Below are positions 1 through 26,482 of a stretch of DNA of 64,000 nt, piece by piece (position 1 is the stretch's first letter; each line of letters begins with the position of its first letter). Source of the stretch: Bradyrhizobium sp. B097 (lineage in GTDB: Bacteria > Pseudomonadota > Alphaproteobacteria > Rhizobiales > Xanthobacteraceae); assembly GCF_038957035.1 (NCBI RefSeq), contig NZ_CP152412.1, positions 6,072,501 to 6,136,500 of the forward strand, given 5' to 3'. Under the pieces are notes generated by a model that saw only the letters and a list, made by a program, of their open reading frames with translations, was not told the origin of the DNA and did no database searches. The position numbers and the translations under genes were made by a program.

Positions 1-2961
1 CAGCGGCAGCGGCACATCGTCGGGCAACCGCCGTACCGCCCACAGCGCCTCGCGGCGGTCGAGCCCGAGCGAGCGGAACGCATCGGCGTCGGCGAGCAGG
101 ATCAGCGCGCGCTTGGGGAGAGCGGTGTCGCGGGCGAAGTCCTCCAGCGACGTGAACGGCCGCCGGTTGCGCGCGGCGACGATGCGGTCGGCCCAGTCCA
201 ACTCATCTCCGACCGAGGCCGCGCGGGAGGTGGACGGGTTCCCTCCCCCCTTGCGGGGTCCGAGACGAGCGGAGCTCGCTCTCGAGGTTAGGGAGAGGGG
301 TAAGCCGCACGGGCGGTGGTCGTGGCTTACCCCTCTCTCCAACTCTCCCCCGCAAGGGGGGAGAGAGCCCATCCGTTCGTGCCTCCCTGACTCAGGTACG
401 TTTACGCTTCGCGCATTACGCAGCGTCTGCTGCATCCGCTTCAACCGCTCCTCGTCCTCATCCAGCCAGTGAAAGCCGTCGATCTGGCGGAAGCCGAGCC
501 GCACTGCGCAATGCTTCCCGTCGCGCTCCTCCAGCGTGTTCTGCGCAAAGCTGAAGGAGACATCGACCTCGCGCACCGTGACGTCGTTGTTGCGGGCGTC
601 GCCGACGATCTGCGCCGGGGCATAGAAGCCCATCGGCTGCGAGTTGAGCAGGCCGCAGCAGAACGCATCGGGATGATGGTGCTTCAGCCATGAGGAGATG
701 TAGACGAGTTGCGCGAAGCTCGCGGCATGGCTTTCCGGGAAACCGTAACTGCCAAAGCCCTTGATCTGATCGAAGCAGCTGCGGGCGAAATCCGGATCGT
801 AGCCGCGCGCGACCATGTTGCCGACCAGCTTCTCCTCATAGCTGCCGATGGTGCCGAGGTTGCGGAAGGTCGCCATCGAGCGGCGCAGGCCGTTAGCTTC
901 TTCCGAGGTGAAATGTGCCGCCTCGATCGCGATCCGCATCGCCTGCTCCTGGAACAACGGCACGCCGAGCGTCTTGTGCAGCACGTTGTAGAGCTCGTCC
1001 TTGTCACCCTGGTCCGGCGCCGGCGCTGGATAGCTGACCTTTTCCTGGCCGTTCCGCCGCCTGAGATAAGGATGCACCATGTCGCCCTGGATCGGACCCG
1101 GACGCACGATCGCGACCTCGATGACGAGATCGTAGAAGGTGCGCGGCCTCAAGCGCGGCAGCATGTTCATCTGGGCGCGGCTCTCGACCTGGAACACGCC
1201 GAGCGACTCGCCGCGGCACAGCATGTCGTAGACTTCTTTTTCGTCCTGCGGGACCGAGGCGAGCTCCCAGCGCTCGCCCTTGTGGTCATCGATCAGGTCG
1301 AAGCATTTGCGGATGCAGGTCAGCATGCCCAGCGCCAGCACGTCGACCTTCATCATATGAAGCGCGTCGACGTCGTCCTTGTCCCATTCGATGAAGGTGC
1401 GGTCGTCCATCGCGGCGTTGCCGATCGGCACATAGGTGTCGAGCCGGTCCTGGGTCAGTACATAGCCGCCGACATGCTGCGAGAGATGGCGCGGAAACTC
1501 GATCAGCTCGGTGGCGAGCTCGACCGCGAGGTTGATCATCGCGTTCTTCGGGTCCAACCCGGCCTGCCGCACCTGCATGTCGTTGAGGCCCTTGCCCCAG
1601 CTGCCCCACACGGTGTCGGCGAGCGCCGCGGTGACGTCCTCGGTCAGCCCGAAGGCCTTGCCGACGTCGCGGATCGCGCTGCGCGGTCGATAATGGATGA
1701 TGGTGGCGATGATCGCTGCACGGTGGCGGCCATAGCGGCGATAGACATACTGCATCACCTCCTCGCGCCGCGAATGCTCGAAATCGACGTCGATGTCGGG
1801 CGGCTCCAGCCGCTCCTTGGAGATGAAGCGCTCGAACAAGAGATCGACCTTGGTCGGATCGACCGAGGTGACGCCGAGCACGTAACACACCGCCGAATTG
1901 GCCGCCGAGCCCCGCCCCTGGCACAGGATGTTCTGGCTGCGCGCATAGTGCACGATGTCGTGCACGGTGAGGAAGTAATGCGCGTATTGCAGCTCGGCGA
2001 TCAGCGCGAGCTCCTTGTTCAGGGTGGCGCGAAGTTTTGCGTCAATCTCGCCGCCGAAATATTTGTCGACGCCGGCCCAGGTCAAATCCTCCAGATGCTG
2101 CTGCGCGGTCTTGCCCGGCGGCACCGGCTCGTCGGGATACTGGTATTTGAGCTGGTCGAGCGAGAAGGAGATGCGTTTCGCAAAGCGCATGGTCTCCGCG
2201 ATCGCGTCCGGCAGATCGCGGAACAGCCTGATCATCTCATGCGCCGGCTTGAGATGCCGCTCGGCATTGGCCTCGAGCCTGCGGCCGACAGCCTCGATCG
2301 TGGTCTTTTCGCGGATGCAGGTCAGCACGTCCTGCAGCGGGCGGCGCGCAGGATGGTGATAGAGCACCTCGTTGGTGGCAAGCAGCGGCACGCCGGCGTC
2401 AGTGGCGAGGCCATGCAGCCGCGCGAGGCGGCGCCTGTCGTCGCCGCGATAGAGCAGGCTTGCGGCCAGCCAGACGCCGTCGGCGGCGCTGGCCTTCAAT
2501 CGCGCGAGCAGATCAAGCGCTTTCTCCTCTTCGAAACGATGCGGCAGCGCCAGCACCAGAAGCTGGCCTTCGGCGAAATCGAGCAGATCGGACAGAGTGA
2601 GCCGGCAGTCGCCCTTCTCGATGCGTTCGCTGCCGCCGCCGCGCTTGCCGCGGGTGAGCAATTGGCAGAGCCGGCCATAGGCGGCGCGATCGCGCGGATA
2701 GACCAGGATATCGGGCGTGCCGTCGATGAAGACGATGCGGGCGCCGATCAGAAGCTTGGGCGGATGGGCGACCTTGTCGCTGTCGAGCTCCTTCCAGGCG
2801 CGCACCACGCCGGCCAGCGTGTTGTGATCGGCGAGCCCGATCACGGGAATCCCAAGTTCGCTCGCCTGATGCACATAGGCGCGCGGATCGGAGCCGCCGC
2901 GCAGGAAGGAGAAATTGCTGGTGATGCCGATCTCGGCATAATCGGGTAGAGGCGCGCTCAT
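1..2961 (-). CDS. dnaE2: Error-prone DNA polymerase DnaE2, 3' end outside the window
   Basis: This is the catalytic subunit of the error-prone translesion polymerase that works with ImuA and ImuB in damage-induced mutagenesis. The frame is open from the ATG at 2961 to base 1 (987 codons), so the C-terminus lies beyond the left edge. The N-terminus (SNFSFLRGGSDP, then GLADHNTL) is a PHP domain, and PDIDVDF near residue 390 is the C-family polymerase catalytic motif. The start overlaps the imuB stop as ATGA, which fixes it. About 50 residues near 860-910, rich in Gly, Ser, Pro and Arg and unlike DnaE2, are encoded by a palindromic repeat; the frame stays open through it and DnaE2-like sequence resumes at GDELDWADRIVAARNRRPF. 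Family assignment is secure; whether the interrupted protein works is unknown. Confidence 0.95.
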   Translation of the reverse strand, partial: MSAPLPDYAEIGITSNFSFLRGGSDPRAYVHQASELGIPVIGLADHNTLAGVVRAWKELDSDKVAHPPKLLIGARIVFIDGTPDILVYPRDRAAYGRLCQLLTRGKRGGGSERIEKGDCRLTLSDLLDFAEGQLLVLALPHRFEEEKALDLLARLKASAADGVWLAASLLYRGDDRRRLARLHGLATDAGVPLLATNEVLYHHPARRPLQDVLTCIREKTTIEAVGRRLEANAERHLKPAHEMIRLFRDLPDAIAETMRFAKRISFSLDQLKYQYPDEPVPPGKTAQQHLEDLTWAGVDKYFGGEIDAKLRATLNKELALIAELQYAHYFLTVHDIVHYARSQNILCQGRGSAANSAVCYVLGVTSVDPTKVDLLFERFISKERLEPPDIDVDFEHSRREEVMQYVYRRYGRHRAAIIATIIHYRPRSAIRDVGKAFGLTEDVTAALADTVWGSWGKGLNDMQVRQAGLDPKNAMINLAVELATELIEFPRHLSQHVGGYVLTQDRLDTYVPIGNAAMDDRTFIEWDKDDVDALHMMKVDVLALGMLTCIRKCFDLIDDHKGERWELASVPQDEKEVYDMLCRGESLGVFQVESRAQMNMLPRLRPRTFYDLVIEVAIVRPGPIQGDMVHPYLRRRNGQEKVSYPAPAPDQGDKDELYNVLHKTLGVPLFQEQAMRIAIEAAHFTSEEANGLRRSMATFRNLGTIGSYEEKLVGNMVARGYDPDFARSCFDQIKGFGSYGFPESHAASFAQLVYISSWLKHHHPDAFCCGLLNSQPMGFYAPAQIVGDARNNDVTVREVDVSFSFAQNTLEERDGKHCAVRLGFRQIDGFHWLDEDEERLKRMQQTLRNARSVNVPESGRHERMGSLPPCGGELERGVSHDHRPCGLPLSLTSRASSARLGPRKGGGNPSTSRAASVGDELDWADRIVAARNRRPFTSLEDFARDTALPKRALILLADADAFRSLGLDRREALWAVRRLPDDVPLPL
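240..366. repeat. Palindromic repeat element inside dnaE2
   Basis: A GC-rich palindromic element lies in frame within dnaE2. The outer arms (about 243-258 and 347-362) pair as CTCCCCCCTTGCGGGG with CCCCGCAAGGGGGGAG. A second nested inverted repeat pairs GGAGAGGGGTAAGCC (292-306) with GGCTTACCCCTCTC (324-337). The ends resemble those of the elements at 4475-4595 and 26336-26482, but the middle differs. No stop codon occurs in the dnaE2 frame. Confidence 0.8.
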
Positions 2962-4751
2962 GCGAACAGCCCGTGCACATACCAGTTGGCCGGGACCGGC
3001 TTGCCTTCCTCGTCGCGCAGCTCGCTCTCGTAGAGGCCGTCGCGAAAGATCCAGAAGCGCTGGCCCTCGGCATCCTCGACGCGGAAGTAATCGCGCGTCA
3101 GCGCCGCGCCGTCCTGCTTCCACCATTCCATCGCGATGCGCTCGGGGCCCTCGACCCGCACCACCGCATGCAAGGCGCGCCGCCAGGTGAACTGGTGCGG
3201 CGGGCCGTCCGGCACACTCGCGAACGGCACCTTGATCGGCTCGGGCCGCTCGAACAGCCTGAGCGGCCGCAGCGGCGGCTCGCCGGCGACGCGCTCCGGC
3301 CAGGCGGCCGCGCTGGCCGCGGCCAGATGATGCTGCGCCGGCAGCGCCAGCGCAGCGCGTTCGGGGATGTGGCTCTCCAGCGGCAGATGCACGACGACGC
3401 GTTTGCCCCCGATGCGGGCGGCGATGCGGTCGATCAGCGCCGAGATCTCGTCATTGTCGTGCACCGTGGTGTCGAGATCGCGCTGCTGCTGCACCACGAT
3501 TTCGGTACGCCCCGCGGCGAGGCGAATGAGATCGAAGCCGAAGCCGGGGTCGAGCGGATCGTTGAGCGCATCGAGCCGCTCGCGGAACAGGCGGTCGATC
3601 ATCTCCGGCCGCGTCACCGGCCGCCCGGTCTCGACCATGATCGCGCGCACCGCGCCGTCGGTGCGGAAGAAGCTCGCTTCCAGCTGCCGCGCGCCCTTGC
3701 CCTGCTTGTCCATCGCCGCAACCAGCGTCTTGGCAAGGCTTGAGAGCGTCAGCGCGATCACGGTGTCGGTCGCGATCGGCTCGGGGAAACGCTTCTCGAC
3801 GATGTAATCGGGCAGCGGCTTGCGCGGACTGATCGGGACATCGCCCCGCCCGAGCGCGTGGCCGAGCAGGGTCGTGAAATCAGCGCCGAACCGCGCCGAG
3901 ATCTCATGCGGCGCGCGCGAGGCGACATCGCCGATGGTCTTCAGGCCGGCGCGGCGCAGGCCGGTGGTGATTGTGGCATCGGCGCCGAGCGCCGACACCG
4001 GCAGCGGGCCGACCGCCTCCGCCTCTGCGCCATCGGCGATGATCTGCCCCGAGGTATAACGCGTCAGCGTGCGCGCCGCGATCGAGGTGCCGGCAATCGC
4101 CGCGCTGACGGCAAAGCCGCGCCGGCTCAGCGCATTGGTCACGATCTGCAGCAGCGCGCGCTCGCCACCGAACAGATGCGCGCAGCCGGTGATGTCGAGA
4201 AACAGCCCGTAAGGCGGATCGAGCGCGACCAGCGGCGTGAAGCGGTCGCACCAGTCGGCGATGTCATTCAGCGTCTTCAGATCGGCGGCGGGGTCGGCGT
4301 CGTAGACCGTAAGCTCCGGGCAGATCGCCCGCGCATTGGCAAGCGGCAGCCCGATCGACAGCCCGGCCCGCACCGCCGCCTCGTCGATCGCATGCAACAG
4401 GATCGCGTTGTGGTCCTTTGCGACGACGACGCTGGGGAGTTTTTGCACTTGCAGAAAGCGAGGTTCTTTCTTCGCCTCTCCCGCTTGCGGGGGAGGCCGG
4501 ATCGCATCGCGAGATGCGATCCGGGTGGGGGCTCTCTCCTCAGCGGGACTCGTGGCGAGACCCCCACCCCAACCCTCCCCCGCAAGCGGGAGAGGGAGCC
4601 CTACCACCGCCCGTGTGTCGGTTGGCACAACGGCATGCGCATCAGCTTGCGAGGCGATGTCCTGCGCGCGCTTGCGCTTGATGCGGTCGATGGGTAGGCG
4701 TGGCAGCCACAGGCTGAGGATACGCCGACGGTTCACTGAATTGGCACTCAT
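2958..4751 (-). CDS. imuB: ImuB, Y-family-like mutagenesis protein without a polymerase active site
   Basis: ImuB bridges the sliding clamp and DnaE2 in the ImuA-ImuB-DnaE2 mutasome. The 597-residue protein has the ImuB N-terminus (ILSLWLPRLPIDRIKRK) and the Y-family fold around LDITGCAHLFGGE, but lacks the DxD and SxDE metal-binding acids of active Y-family enzymes, as is known for ImuB. The ATG at 4751 (MSANSVNRRR) was chosen because the family sequence begins there; the frame stays open to 4847. The gene overlaps imuA by about 110 bp and dnaE2 by ATGA. Residues about 52-95 (PLPLAGEGWGGGL to RPPPQAGEAKK) are encoded by an inserted palindromic repeat separating the first strand region from PSVVVAKDHN. 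Confidence 0.93.
   Translation of the reverse strand: MSANSVNRRRILSLWLPRLPIDRIKRKRAQDIASQADAHAVVPTDTRAVVGLPLPLAGEGWGGGLATSPAEERAPTRIASRDAIRPPPQAGEAKKEPRFLQVQKLPSVVVAKDHNAILLHAIDEAAVRAGLSIGLPLANARAICPELTVYDADPAADLKTLNDIADWCDRFTPLVALDPPYGLFLDITGCAHLFGGERALLQIVTNALSRRGFAVSAAIAGTSIAARTLTRYTSGQIIADGAEAEAVGPLPVSALGADATITTGLRRAGLKTIGDVASRAPHEISARFGADFTTLLGHALGRGDVPISPRKPLPDYIVEKRFPEPIATDTVIALTLSSLAKTLVAAMDKQGKGARQLEASFFRTDGAVRAIMVETGRPVTRPEMIDRLFRERLDALNDPLDPGFGFDLIRLAAGRTEIVVQQQRDLDTTVHDNDEISALIDRIAARIGGKRVVVHLPLESHIPERAALALPAQHHLAAASAAAWPERVAGEPPLRPLRLFERPEPIKVPFASVPDGPPHQFTWRRALHAVVRVEGPERIAMEWWKQDGAALTRDYFRVEDAEGQRFWIFRDGLYESELRDEEGKPVPANWYVHGLFA
4475..4595. repeat. Palindromic repeat element inside imuB
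   Basis: This element is bounded by perfect 22-bp inverted repeats at 4475-4496 and 4574-4595 (core CTCTCCCGCTTGCGGGGGAG). It also contains a second perfect palindrome, CCGGATCGCATC-GCGA-GATGCGATCCGG, at 4497-4524. It lies wholly inside imuB and is read through without a stop. The inner palindrome recurs with small changes in the intergenic copy at 26336-26482, so this is a dispersed family. Confidence 0.88.
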
Positions 4752-5436
4752 CACACTTCCATTCCATGATCCATCGCCCGACCGGGCCATGACGATTGCG
4801 CACGAGTTCGGCCTCGAAGCGCGGCGCGCCCCAGGCGCTTGCGGCATGGCCGGGCGGCGAATGCGCCGCGCGCACGATCCAGCGCGTCTCCGCGGTCGAG
4901 GGGATCGGAGTCGCCGCGATCCGCAACACCAGCGCGGTGACGCCGGAGGCTTGCGCGGCCAGGGTCAGTTTGCGGCTGGCGACGAGATCGAGCTGGCGCG
5001 CATCGCCCCAGATTTCCAGCACGACCGCGCCGAGCGCATCGCAGGCGAGCGCGTCGGCCGCGGTGCGCAGGCCGCTGTCGACATCGGCGGCACGCACGGT
5101 GACCAAGAGGCGCGGATCGAGGCCGAGCTCGGCAAGCCCGCGCATCGACAGCGCGCCGTTTTCGCGATCGGAAAAATCCTGCCGCACCCAGACCAGCGGC
5201 TTGCGCGCTGACACCCGTCCGGCGAGCCCGGCGATGAAGCCGGTCGCCGCGCCGCCTTGATGACCGGCCGCGAACACCTCGTGCAGCGCGGCCGGTGCAA
5301 GCCCGCCGCGCAGCATCGCGTCTGCGCTCGTGTGTCCAAGCGCGATGCGGTTCCGCATCGCTGCCTCCGATGGCGCCTCGATGCGCGCGATGCTGCCGCG
5401 CAGAGACGCAAGCGTACCCGTGCGTGCGCCGTTCAT
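4642..5436 (-). CDS. imuA: ImuA, RecA-like mutagenesis protein
   Basis: This is the first gene of the imuA-imuB-dnaE2 SOS operon. The 264-residue product matches ImuA, a RecA/SulA-related protein whose alphaproteobacterial role is to support ImuB and DnaE2. The region LHEVFAAGHQGGAATGF corresponds to a degenerate P-loop, and ARQLDLVASRKLTLAAQASG is typical of the family. The ATG at 5436 (MNGARTG) is preceded by GGAAGGAGC at good spacing, so it is preferred over the start 18 bases upstream. The 3' end runs about 110 bp into imuB. A perfect LexA site lies 73 bp upstream, so SOS control is likely. Confidence 0.92.
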   Translation of the reverse strand: MNGARTGTLASLRGSIARIEAPSEAAMRNRIALGHTSADAMLRGGLAPAALHEVFAAGHQGGAATGFIAGLAGRVSARKPLVWVRQDFSDRENGALSMRGLAELGLDPRLLVTVRAADVDSGLRTAADALACDALGAVVLEIWGDARQLDLVASRKLTLAAQASGVTALVLRIAATPIPSTAETRWIVRAAHSPPGHAASAWGAPRFEAELVRNRHGPVGRWIMEWKCDECQFSEPSAYPQPVAATPTHRPHQAQARAGHRLAS

Positions 5437-5508
5437 TGCGCCGCTCCTTCCCAACCAAAATTTGAGGCCGTCACTGACCAGAACAGAGAACCAGGGACTG
5501 GCTCATTT

Positions 5509-5523: not shown

Positions 5524-5633
5524 TAATATAAAGCTAACAGGGCCCGCGGAGTCAATCGGATTGGTGAGCTCATCGATTCATGAATGAAATCAATGGGATT
5601 CAGCAGCCGCCGAAGCGGAAACGGAGCAATCGC

Positions 5634-7067
5634 ATGCGTATCATCGTGCTCGACAACGACACCGACTTCGAGGGCTGGCGCAAGGCCGCGCGGCGATTGG
5701 CGCTGAATGATGTGAAGCCTGCGGAGGTCACGTGGACCGTACGCAAGGACGACGAACTCTCGTCAGCCTCCTGCGTGAATGACTTGCCCGATGCGCCACA
5801 GGCGCGGTTCAACGTGACAGCCATTTTCGTCGAGCTCGCAAAGACCGCGATCCTGCATCGCAATGACACGCGCTTCTCCCTGCTCTATCGCCTGCTCTGG
5901 CGGCTGCGCAGCCACCATGATCTGCTCAGCGCGACTGATGATCCTGATGTGGCCGAGGTCCACGCGATGGCGCGCGCGGTCTATCGCGACATCGACAGGA
6001 TGCACGCGCAGCTCCGCTTCCGCGAGATCGGCCGCGAGCGGACGGCGCATTATGTCGCCTGGTTCGAGCCGGAGCATCGCATCGTCGAGTTCGCCGCACC
6101 TTTCTTCGCCGGCCGCTTCGCCGACATGCCGTGGTCGATTCTGACTCCCGACGTCTGCGCGCATTGGGACGGGCACGCGATCTCGATCTCGCCGGGCGTC
6201 GCCAAATCCGAGGTGCCGAGCGAGGATCGGCTCGAGGAGGCCTGGCGGCGTCATGACAACGGCCTCTTCAATCCCGCGCGGCTGAAAGTGATGGAGACGC
6301 CGCAGGCCTATTGGAGGAACCTGCCCGAGGACTCGATCATCAAGCCGCTGATCGAAGACGCCATGCGCATGACCAGCGGCCCCTTCATCGCACGCAAGGC
6401 GGCCGAGCCGCGGAAGCCGCAGGATGAGCCGATGGCCCGTAAGCAAACTCACGACACGCAAGCGCACGACACGATTGCTGCCTTGCGCGAAGAGGCCGCC
6501 GATTGCCGCGCCTGCCCGCTATGGAAGGACGCAACCCAGACCGTGTTCGGCGAAGGGCCGCAAAGCGCGACGCTGATGCTGGTCGGCGAGCAGCCCGGCG
6601 ACAAGGAAGATCTCGCAGGCCATCCCTTTGTCGGACCGGCCGGGCAGATGCTCGATCGCGCGCTTGAGGACGCCGGCATCGCGCGCGCCACGGTCTACAT
6701 CACCAACGCGGTGAAGCATTTCAAATTCGTGCCGCGCGGCAAGATCCGGCTGCACCAGAAGCCGGGCACACAGGAGATCCGCGCCTGCCGCCAGTGGTAC
6801 GCGCGCGAGCTCGACGCCATCAGGCCGGAACTCGTGGTGGCACTCGGCGCCACCGCAGCGCAGAGCGTGCTCGGCAAGATCACCCCGATCAACAAGAACC
6901 GCGGCCGCCTCATCGATCACGACGGAACCAAGGTGCTCGTCACCGTACATCCGTCCTACCTGTTGCGGCTGCCCGACGAGAAAGCCAAAACGCTGGAATA
7001 TCAGCGCTTTATTGACGACCTGAAAATTGCCGCAGATCAGTTGCGTAGTTCGGCCCGCGCGGCCTGA
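5634..7067 (+). CDS. udgX: UdgX-type uracil-DNA glycosylase/crosslinking protein with N-terminal DUF4130 domain
   Basis: The 477-residue protein fuses an N-terminal DUF4130-type domain of unknown activity (about 1-250) to a UdgX domain (about 280-477). UdgX excises uracil and stays covalently attached to the abasic site through a histidine in a short loop. Visible are the 4Fe-4S cysteines CRAC (C291, C294) and C385, the GEQPGDKEDLAG motif, TNAVKHFKF, the loop GKIRLHQKP with candidate nucleophile His374, and VTVHPSYLLR. The ATG at 5634 (MRIIVLD) has GGAG seven bases upstream and is preferred over the in-frame ATG at 5580. It is divergent from the SOS mutagenesis operon, consistent with a DNA-damage role. 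Family assignment is firm; SOS regulation is inferred. Confidence 0.9.
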   Translation: MRIIVLDNDTDFEGWRKAARRLALNDVKPAEVTWTVRKDDELSSASCVNDLPDAPQARFNVTAIFVELAKTAILHRNDTRFSLLYRLLWRLRSHHDLLSATDDPDVAEVHAMARAVYRDIDRMHAQLRFREIGRERTAHYVAWFEPEHRIVEFAAPFFAGRFADMPWSILTPDVCAHWDGHAISISPGVAKSEVPSEDRLEEAWRRHDNGLFNPARLKVMETPQAYWRNLPEDSIIKPLIEDAMRMTSGPFIARKAAEPRKPQDEPMARKQTHDTQAHDTIAALREEAADCRACPLWKDATQTVFGEGPQSATLMLVGEQPGDKEDLAGHPFVGPAGQMLDRALEDAGIARATVYITNAVKHFKFVPRGKIRLHQKPGTQEIRACRQWYARELDAIRPELVVALGATAAQSVLGKITPINKNRGRLIDHDGTKVLVTVHPSYLLRLPDEKAKTLEYQRFIDDLKIAADQLRSSARAA

Positions 7068-26335: not shown

Positions 26336-26482
26336 GGCTCCCGCCCCGCGTGCGGGGAGAGGCCGGAACGCATCGCCAGATGCGTTCCGGGTGAGGGGGA
26401 GCTTCCGCGAGCGCAGCTATCACCCTGTATGCGGAAGCAGCCCCTCACCCCAGCCCTCTCCCCGTAAGAACAGGGGCGAGGG
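26336..26482. repeat. Intergenic copy of the palindromic repeat found in imuB
   Basis: CCGGAACGCATC-GCCA-GATGCGTTCCGG (26363-26390) matches the inner palindrome of the imuB element with compensating base changes, and the flanks (GGGGAGAGG on the left, CCCTCTCCCCG on the right) match its outer ends. It fills most of the 237-bp gap between the second MaoC-like gene and the MFS gene. Confidence 0.82.

Follow-up and report, generated by a model that had tools for sequence, protein, structure and literature searches.

Palindromic repeats inside bacterial genes have precedents. Passages of a 2013 survey (PMC3733652) report REPs within repair genes, including those for DnaE2, UvrABCD, RecBCD and Pol I, state that in many species repair genes are the only tagged genes, find a chance origin of these insertions hard to believe, and assign RPE-4 and RPE-6 to the CGTC-tag superfamily. 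According to a section of a MITE review (PMC10969869), Rickettsia palindromic elements (RPEs) are palindromes of about 100–150 bp that stay open and add peptides to unrelated proteins, and nearly half of the R. conorii copies lie in genes. Br-REP1 and Br-REP2 of Bradyrhizobium japonicum USDA 110 are described, in the parts of the 2016 report drawn on here (PMC5082802), from intergenic regions and 3'-UTRs; one palindrome flanking Br-REP1 is mentioned there as abundant in some bradyrhizobia, e.g. B. elkanii.

We analysed a 64,000-nucleotide stretch of Bradyrhizobium sp. B097 (NZ_CP152412.1, positions 6,072,501 to 6,136,500), hereafter the window, in which a palindromic element that we call A-type lies in frame within imuB (Table 1). 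ImuB is treated in passages of the literature as a catalytically dead subunit of the mutasome. Like the tagged REPs of 2013, the elements studied here are small palindromic repeats that appear to be translated inside repair genes, and the E-type insert of dnaE2 shares their CGTC tag and CCA tail. Unlike them, A-type elements lack tags where tested, and ImuB has 0 matches in the main text of the survey (PMC3733652). Moreover, our material is an ortholog series in which one loop per gene has been colonised repeatedly by several families. Insertions of REPs into repair genes have been known since 2013; the ortholog series of filled and empty loops is newly documented here. Neither palindromic repeats within imuB nor such a Bradyrhizobium series are reported in the titles and abstract openings of the best-ranked open-licence literature. 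Most accounts of intragenic palindromes concern single cases, and the several dozen genomes compared here, with empty, filled, doubly filled and scarred loops, make it testable how selfish repeats turn into protein sequence, and whether the repair-gene tagging of 2013 reflects chance, tolerance or feedback.

The first-pass annotation of the window had likened the imuB element to RPEs. The likeness holds for the mode of life: a dispersed palindromic element is inserted in frame and adds a peptide. It does not extend to the genic share, which is a few per cent here and gathered in repair genes (152 of 158 repeat intervals lie outside genes), as opposed to nearly half. With MITEs and REPINs the A-type element shares terminal inverted repeats, high copy number and a lack of coding capacity of its own, and it has two marks of a MITE, terminal inverted repeats and multiple copies. 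REPINs require a RAYT, and a RAYT (Y1_Tnp) search of the genome gave 0 matches; the same search was positive in 5 of 14 named control genomes. The 8 nt that precede the left arm, the one side covered, contain GTAG 0, CTAC 0, CGTC 1 and GACG 0 times in 44 matches. Since neither tag was present where tested and no RAYT matched, we regard the A-type element as MITE/REP-like, with no known mover.

The E-type insert of dnaE2 has the features of a CGTC-REP, namely a CGTC or TGTC tag, a stem beginning with AT and a CCA tail. The stem is kept in 17 of 30 E-like dnaE2 linkers, the other 13 being without a complete stem; among these 17 the tag is CGTC in 8 and TGTC in 5, the remaining 4 (CGAG or ATGG) resemble the facing unit, and 12 have the CCA tail. 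By eye, the E-type insert also reads like the arm of Br-REP2 (TCATTCCGGGGC...CCCGGAAT). The copies of interest here lie inside genes, whereas Br-REP1 and Br-REP2 are described as intergenic or in 3'-UTRs in the parts cited (PMC5082802). The Br-REP1 core CCGGAATCTCGAGATTCCGG differs from the A-type core CCGGATCGCATC-n-GATGCGATCCGG, and we do not count the A-type element as a member; within 2 substitutions, the Br-REP1 core occurs 7 times in 2.86 Mb of sampled genome, and 2 of these sites are close to an A-type arm core.

Structure and genomic copies of the imuB element

The two terminal arms of the imuB element (4475–4496 and 4574–4595, 22 nt each) are 100% complementary, and the inner palindrome has a 12-nt stem (4497–4508 with 4513–4524) that is 100% paired, exactly as first annotated. 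Each arm is a hairpin in itself, and a GTGGGGG...CCCCCAC palindrome also lies between the arms, alongside 4497–4524. The flanks seem to contain a longer imperfect inverted repeat, and the ends of the element are therefore blurred. An Rfam search of the element returned no family, only two chance-level matches below the gathering score. The initial survey of the window had found this element and missed the B-type element in dnaE2 (236–370).

Table 1. Repeat elements and the genes that carry them. Positions refer to the window unless a genome position or another locus is named.
Feature	Location	Strand	Remarks
imuB, Y-family polymerase homolog	2958..4751	minus	ATG at 4751, stop at 2958
A-type palindromic element inside imuB	4475..4595	minus	121 bp; about 44 residues including edges, LPLPLAGEGWGGG...RIASRDAIRPPPQAGE
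Left arm (gene-sense 5')	4574..4595	minus	near-perfect hairpin CCTCTCCCGC-TT-GCGGGGGAGG
Inner palindrome	4497..4524	minus	CCGGATCGCATC-TCGC-GATGCGATCCGG
Right arm (gene-sense 3')	4475..4496	minus	CCTCCCCCGCAAGCGGGAGAGG
Diverged intergenic relative of the A-type element	26345..26469	minus	nhmmer E 2.7e-10
dnaE2, error-prone polymerase	1..2957	minus	open frame continues beyond the window into L239
B-type palindromic element inside dnaE2	236..370	minus	in frame, read as SLPPCGGELERGVSHDHRPCGLPLSLTSRASSARLGPRKGGGN
Small palindromic inset in right arm of dnaE2 element	260..285	minus	8 extra codons versus relatives
uvrD with E-type-like insert between motifs II and III	genome positions 2851751-2854588 (end of L148 and L023)		
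Ligase-associated DNA-damage DEXH helicase, repeat-derived insert between motifs I and Ia	L259:3-1935	minus	
Indolepyruvate ferredoxin oxidoreductase, A-type in-frame insert	L004:2-2206	plus	NF009589; sole non-repair case found

Across the whole 9.25-Mb single-contig genome, the arm pattern with at most 2 mismatches is found 164 times on the forward and 173 times on the reverse strand, and the reversed pattern, used as a control in the same search, 0 times on either. The A-type element is thus repeated far beyond chance. Because the pattern is nearly its own reverse complement, one site is usually counted on both strands, and the true number of arm sites should be about half of 337; in the 2.86-Mb sample, 40 + 42 matches correspond to 43 distinct sites. 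Scoring of 40 out of 199 candidates gave at least 40 near-full-length matches at 85–100% identity, the imuB element included. A profile search of the 31% genome sample recovered 35 copies, 25 of them full-length by the cut of the script, which translates into roughly a hundred A-type copies in the genome, a few per cent of them genic. An alignment of 30 genome copies yields a tight consensus. The "same inner palindrome" that had been annotated between genes at 26363–26390 belongs to a diverged relative (Table 1). Its core reads CCGGAACGCATC as against CCGGATCGCATC in the imuB element, so that the sameness is loose.

Reading frame of imuB across the insert

The host gene combines Y-family IMS domains with a dnaE2 neighbour, as expected of imuB; DnaE2 of a near relative (L046) matches NF004225. 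The insert lies between the conserved motifs RRRILSLWLPRLPIDRIKR and PSVVVAKDHNA. The frame is open across the whole element, and the IMS and IMS_C domains follow downstream. In 17 sequences, the 17 codons before the linker show 0.007, 0.007 and 0.102 differences at the first, second and third codon position, and the 60 codons after it show 0.045, 0.017 and 0.206. Linkers with A-type inserts (6 sequences) have a flat profile of 0.080, 0.092 and 0.130, and the B-type, dnaE2 E-type and dnaE2 B-type linker sets are similarly flat. Codons on either side of the insert are thus under strong protein-level constraint, less strict after it than before. The imuA open frame (4642–5454) overlaps the first imuB codons; the upstream constraint would be that of imuB itself, because the free position differs in the imuA register, as judged from the coordinates. 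Beside imuA, on the plus strand, lies a gene (5580–7067) that reads like a fusion of DUF4130 with a uracil-DNA glycosylase, which we take to be UdgX-like.

With change falling mostly at third positions both before and after the insert, ribosomes would have to cross it to make ImuB. By all the sequence evidence, the element is translated as part of ImuB, as had been proposed for about 44 residues. The amino acids that it encodes matter little, with a peptide that drifts almost neutrally while selection holds the frame. We compared 69 loci, the window and 68 named ones: 61 have an intact imuB frame, 1 has a broken one, 1 is masked, and 6, which lack one of the flanking motifs, were not assessable. 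The frame is hence kept in 61 of 62 readable loci, which, together with the predominance of third-position change, argues against the idea that the gene is frameshifted or silent. The dnaE2 frame is intact in 58 of the 69 loci and broken in 0, with 11 not assessable. The only readable broken imuB is that of Bradyrhizobium tropiciagri SEMIA 6148 (L095, about 4250–4384), where the break falls inside the element; this may reflect either genuine loss or an error in sequencing. The imuB linker of RD5-C2 (L046), a near relative whose imuB match has 98% identity, is hidden by a run of N, possibly an assembly gap at the repeat. An AlphaFold model of ImuB built from 26 sequences had a mean pLDDT of 43.8, too poor for placing the loop.

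Loop states in imuB and dnaE2 of relatives

The named loci nearest to the window are from Bradyrhizobium, the nearest clade presumably being the elkanii group. Relatives without the imuB element have a non-repeat loop of 12–26 residues or a deletion scar at this place. Alignment with them therefore speaks against the idea that the insert corresponds to residues of another origin shared by all close relatives, and agrees with the earlier proposal that the in-frame insert would be a source of new protein sequence. We scored linkers for repeat matches against the sample of the B097 genome, with 59 imuB and 58 dnaE2 linkers parsed (one of the 59, the mis-parsed imuB linker of L086, was excluded from the repeat library). 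Linkers of up to 29 aa, 31 of the 59 in imuB, have 0 matches; 29 of these are the scar-free loops of 12–26 residues, and the others are the scars of L053 and L071. Two further imuB scars of 31–33 aa have 2 matches each, and all 25 imuB linkers of 34–101 aa have at least 3. Similarly, the 14 dnaE2 linkers of up to 27 residues have 0 matches; of the 44 longer ones, 43 show at least 4, and that of L092 none.

Several repeat families occupy the same loops. In imuB we distinguish types A (LPLPLAGE...), B (SPPLRGRVGERG...LTLPRKGGG), C (KAFSSEVGTGS), D (SPQRGEVDL) and F, with D nested inside A in L049; in dnaE2, types E (SFRGARSANPES...PRND), A, B, D and F occur, and several A and B inserts have E remnants on their left edge. 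Three scars (L040, L053, L071) are joined at CCCGC, the product that would be expected of a deletion between the CCCGC repeats of both arms. On a quick 53-row tree of linker-free ImuB and DnaE2, at least 14 state changes are required in imuB and 24 in dnaE2, counts that may be raised by composite labels and by allele exchange between strains (the dnaE2 type of the window, L038 and L047, a variant outside the regular expression, was assigned to B by hand). Across species, one imuB loop is thus occupied by different repeat families, turned over by nested insertion and deletion.

Genic A-type copies with both arms (10 in imuB, 6 in dnaE2) share the same arm phase in 16 of 16 cases, with an arm-to-arm distance divisible by 3, and by their peptides they share the same orientation. 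The A-type copy of the oxidoreductase gene has an arm spacing of 99. Spacing is divisible by 3 in 18 of 41 distinct non-genic pairs, from which duplicates and the oxidoreductase-gene copy were removed (Fisher test against the 16 of 16 genic copies, P-value 5e-5, uncorrected for kinship). The shared frame of the genic copies may reflect peptide tolerance or common descent, and related sequences are not independent of each other in any of these counts.

Host genes and competing explanations

Our genome sample consists of 140 stretches of 20 kb and the window (2.864 Mb, 31% of the genome). It was searched with a repeat library limited to the families found in imuB and dnaE2 linkers, and genes were called with a home-made program (84% coding in a first run on 1.66 Mb). 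Of 158 repeat intervals, 152 lie outside called genes, 5 within and 1 across an edge (L231). The five are in imuB, dnaE2, uvrD (two pieces) and one doubtful gene (L193). Another 60 loci, some of which overlap the sample, gave 89 intervals, with 80 outside genes, 1 overlapping and 8 within: imuB, dnaE2 twice (one site), uvrD, a helicase twice, an oxidoreductase and a C-terminal tail. The 68 named loci contain 102 intervals, 53 of them in dnaE2, 30 in imuB and 19 outside genes, and none was found in any other called gene. Taken together, the three sets yield five genes with interior copies, namely imuB, dnaE2, uvrD, the ligase-associated helicase and indolepyruvate ferredoxin oxidoreductase, and four of the five interior targets are therefore repair genes. 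Leaving aside imuB as given, 3 of 4 would be repair genes with a probability of about 3e–5 if 2% of genes are repair genes, a share that we assumed. The tally leaves out two long open frames (437 aa at 2684900 and 335 aa at 8527366) from a screen in which 150 of 239 candidates were scored. The recurrence across several repair genes had been missed in the first interpretation of the locus; what that interpretation had right was an in-frame, apparently translated insert that brings a new peptide.

Several candidates were rejected. The PolA element lies only next to the stop codon, and an element likewise follows the stop codon of a 702-aa open frame at 2759077. In L193 (an MFS protein) the repeat is upstream of the domain within the open frame. 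L231 and L246 show overlap of the 3' end of the gene only, L250 concerns the C-terminal tail of a DUF559 protein, and the repeats of L118 and L217 are both between genes.

In UvrD the insert lies between DEYQDTN and GDDDQSIY; the corresponding turn of PcrA (1pjr) is one or two residues long. All of the best 120 of 7999 scored UvrD homologs could be parsed, 22 with linkers of 53–54 residues and 98 with 64–97. The helicase is best matched by TIGR04121 (741 bits versus a cut-off of 850, the fragment being partial), and its full-length relatives bear that name. Its insert is located between GAGKT and LYISPLKALA, where mycobacterial Lhr (chain of 5v9x) has a short connection; 112 of 121 sequences could be parsed, with linkers of 35–110 residues and several different peptides among homologs. 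We searched these linkers by tblastn against the B097 genome sample and the named loci, imuB and dnaE2 linkers included. At least 3 matches were found for none of the short linkers (0/27 in the helicase, 0/21 in UvrD) and for most of the long ones (62/81 and 65/98, respectively); the repeat origin is weak for 19 long helicase and 33 long UvrD linkers. Outside the B097 genome this origin is judged from peptide matches, since only proteins were compared there. Each of the four repair proteins, ImuB, DnaE2, UvrD and the helicase, thus has one linker with repeat-derived or repeat-like peptides of several kinds, which differ between species.

We consider it probable that tolerant flexible loops, combined with selection on the frame, host a dispersed MITE/REP-like repeat. 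A repeat of concatenated palindromes has been inserted in frame into the ImuB linker, between RRRILSLWLPRLPIDRIKR and PSVVVAK. Insertion would occur everywhere, and selection would purge it from almost all genes. The loops would tolerate extra flexible residues, and a first element would enlarge the permissive target for later ones. The excess of repair and mutasome enzymes could arise from their large size, modular build and only occasional use; a mildly hampering insert in such an enzyme might survive long enough to be trimmed. The oxidoreductase case fits tolerance better than a repair-specific cause. The hits do not extend to every repair gene: UvrA shows no repeat in a 3.3-kb stretch that covers 977 residues of its 1037-residue open frame, and PolA has an element only beside its stop codon. 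Tolerance alone does not account for four of five interior targets being DNA-repair genes. We entertain, tentatively and with less than even confidence, that unrelated palindromic repeats in this genus, where they enter genes, settle preferentially in enzymes of repair and mutagenesis, in a co-evolution with feedback in which each enzyme offers one long-lived landing-pad loop that is overwritten time and again. If true, each insertion would feed back on repair, mutation rate or repeat survival.

Inserts could also serve adaptive tuning: they would change how active or abundant the mutasome and repair helicases are, or how these bind their partners, to the benefit of lineages that adjust their mutation rate; a bulky loop or a strong mRNA hairpin in the coding region would be the means, and gain and loss of elements a slow switch. 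Mutagenesis or repair is the function of four of the five genes, state changes and deletion scars are frequent, and the mRNA hairpins are very strong (sense strand of the window at 4440–4640, –128.7 kcal/mol, z = –8.8; dnaE2 hairpin, z = –8.4). A similar suggestion is made in passages of the 2013 REP paper (PMC3733652). We nevertheless rate this as unlikely, given the little amino-acid constraint in insert-bearing linkers, the acceptance of several families in the same role, and the different frames in which the E-type is read in dnaE2 and UvrD. A direct adaptive role is not needed, though the data leave room for one.

Feedback or targeting would mean that repair genes are induced during damage, when repeats move, or that weakened repair helps repeats to spread or persist, with hitch-hiking. 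Several repeat families cluster in repair genes, comparable lists come from other phyla in the passages of 2013 (PMC3733652), and adjacent imuB and dnaE2 are both hit in one genome. Both are presumably SOS genes. The lack of a known mover, with 0 Y1_Tnp/RAYT matches in a genome search that proved positive in 5 of 14 control genomes, makes this quite improbable.

The segment might also be absent from the protein, with translation starting downstream of the insert and the open frame arising by chance in a GC-rich repeat. Among the 41 distinct non-genic copies, 27–33 are indeed open in any one of the six frames, so that reading through the A-type repeat is usually possible whatever the frame, and of the 120 best ImuB homologs 45 lack the conserved N-terminal motif in their annotation. 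The third-position change upstream of the insert in the imuB frame and the frame kept in 61 of 62 loci make a skipped segment very hard to maintain, and in DnaE2, UvrD and the helicase the inserts lie between conserved motifs, where a downstream start would lose conserved domains. In 27 of the 45 homologs the repeat peptide is found within the first 75 residues. With the motif missing and the repeat peptide so near the start, the database starts of these homologs are, in practical terms, probably misannotated. That the linkers are old protein sequence from which the dispersed repeats were copied out, as the commonness of long linkers in Bradyrhizobium might suggest, is scarcely credible given the short repeat-free linkers in imuB of Afipia, Tardiphaga and other Bradyrhizobium and in some UvrD and helicase relatives, the several families and nested copies in one loop, and the overwhelmingly intergenic location of the repeats.

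The arms of A-type and B-type elements contain nested insets of about eight codons (SEASEARSR, KSELRSSR, PRRAELAL, SRASSARLG). These insets occur in both imuB and dnaE2, in the imuB linkers of L031, L039, L041 and L079 and at 260–285 of the window.
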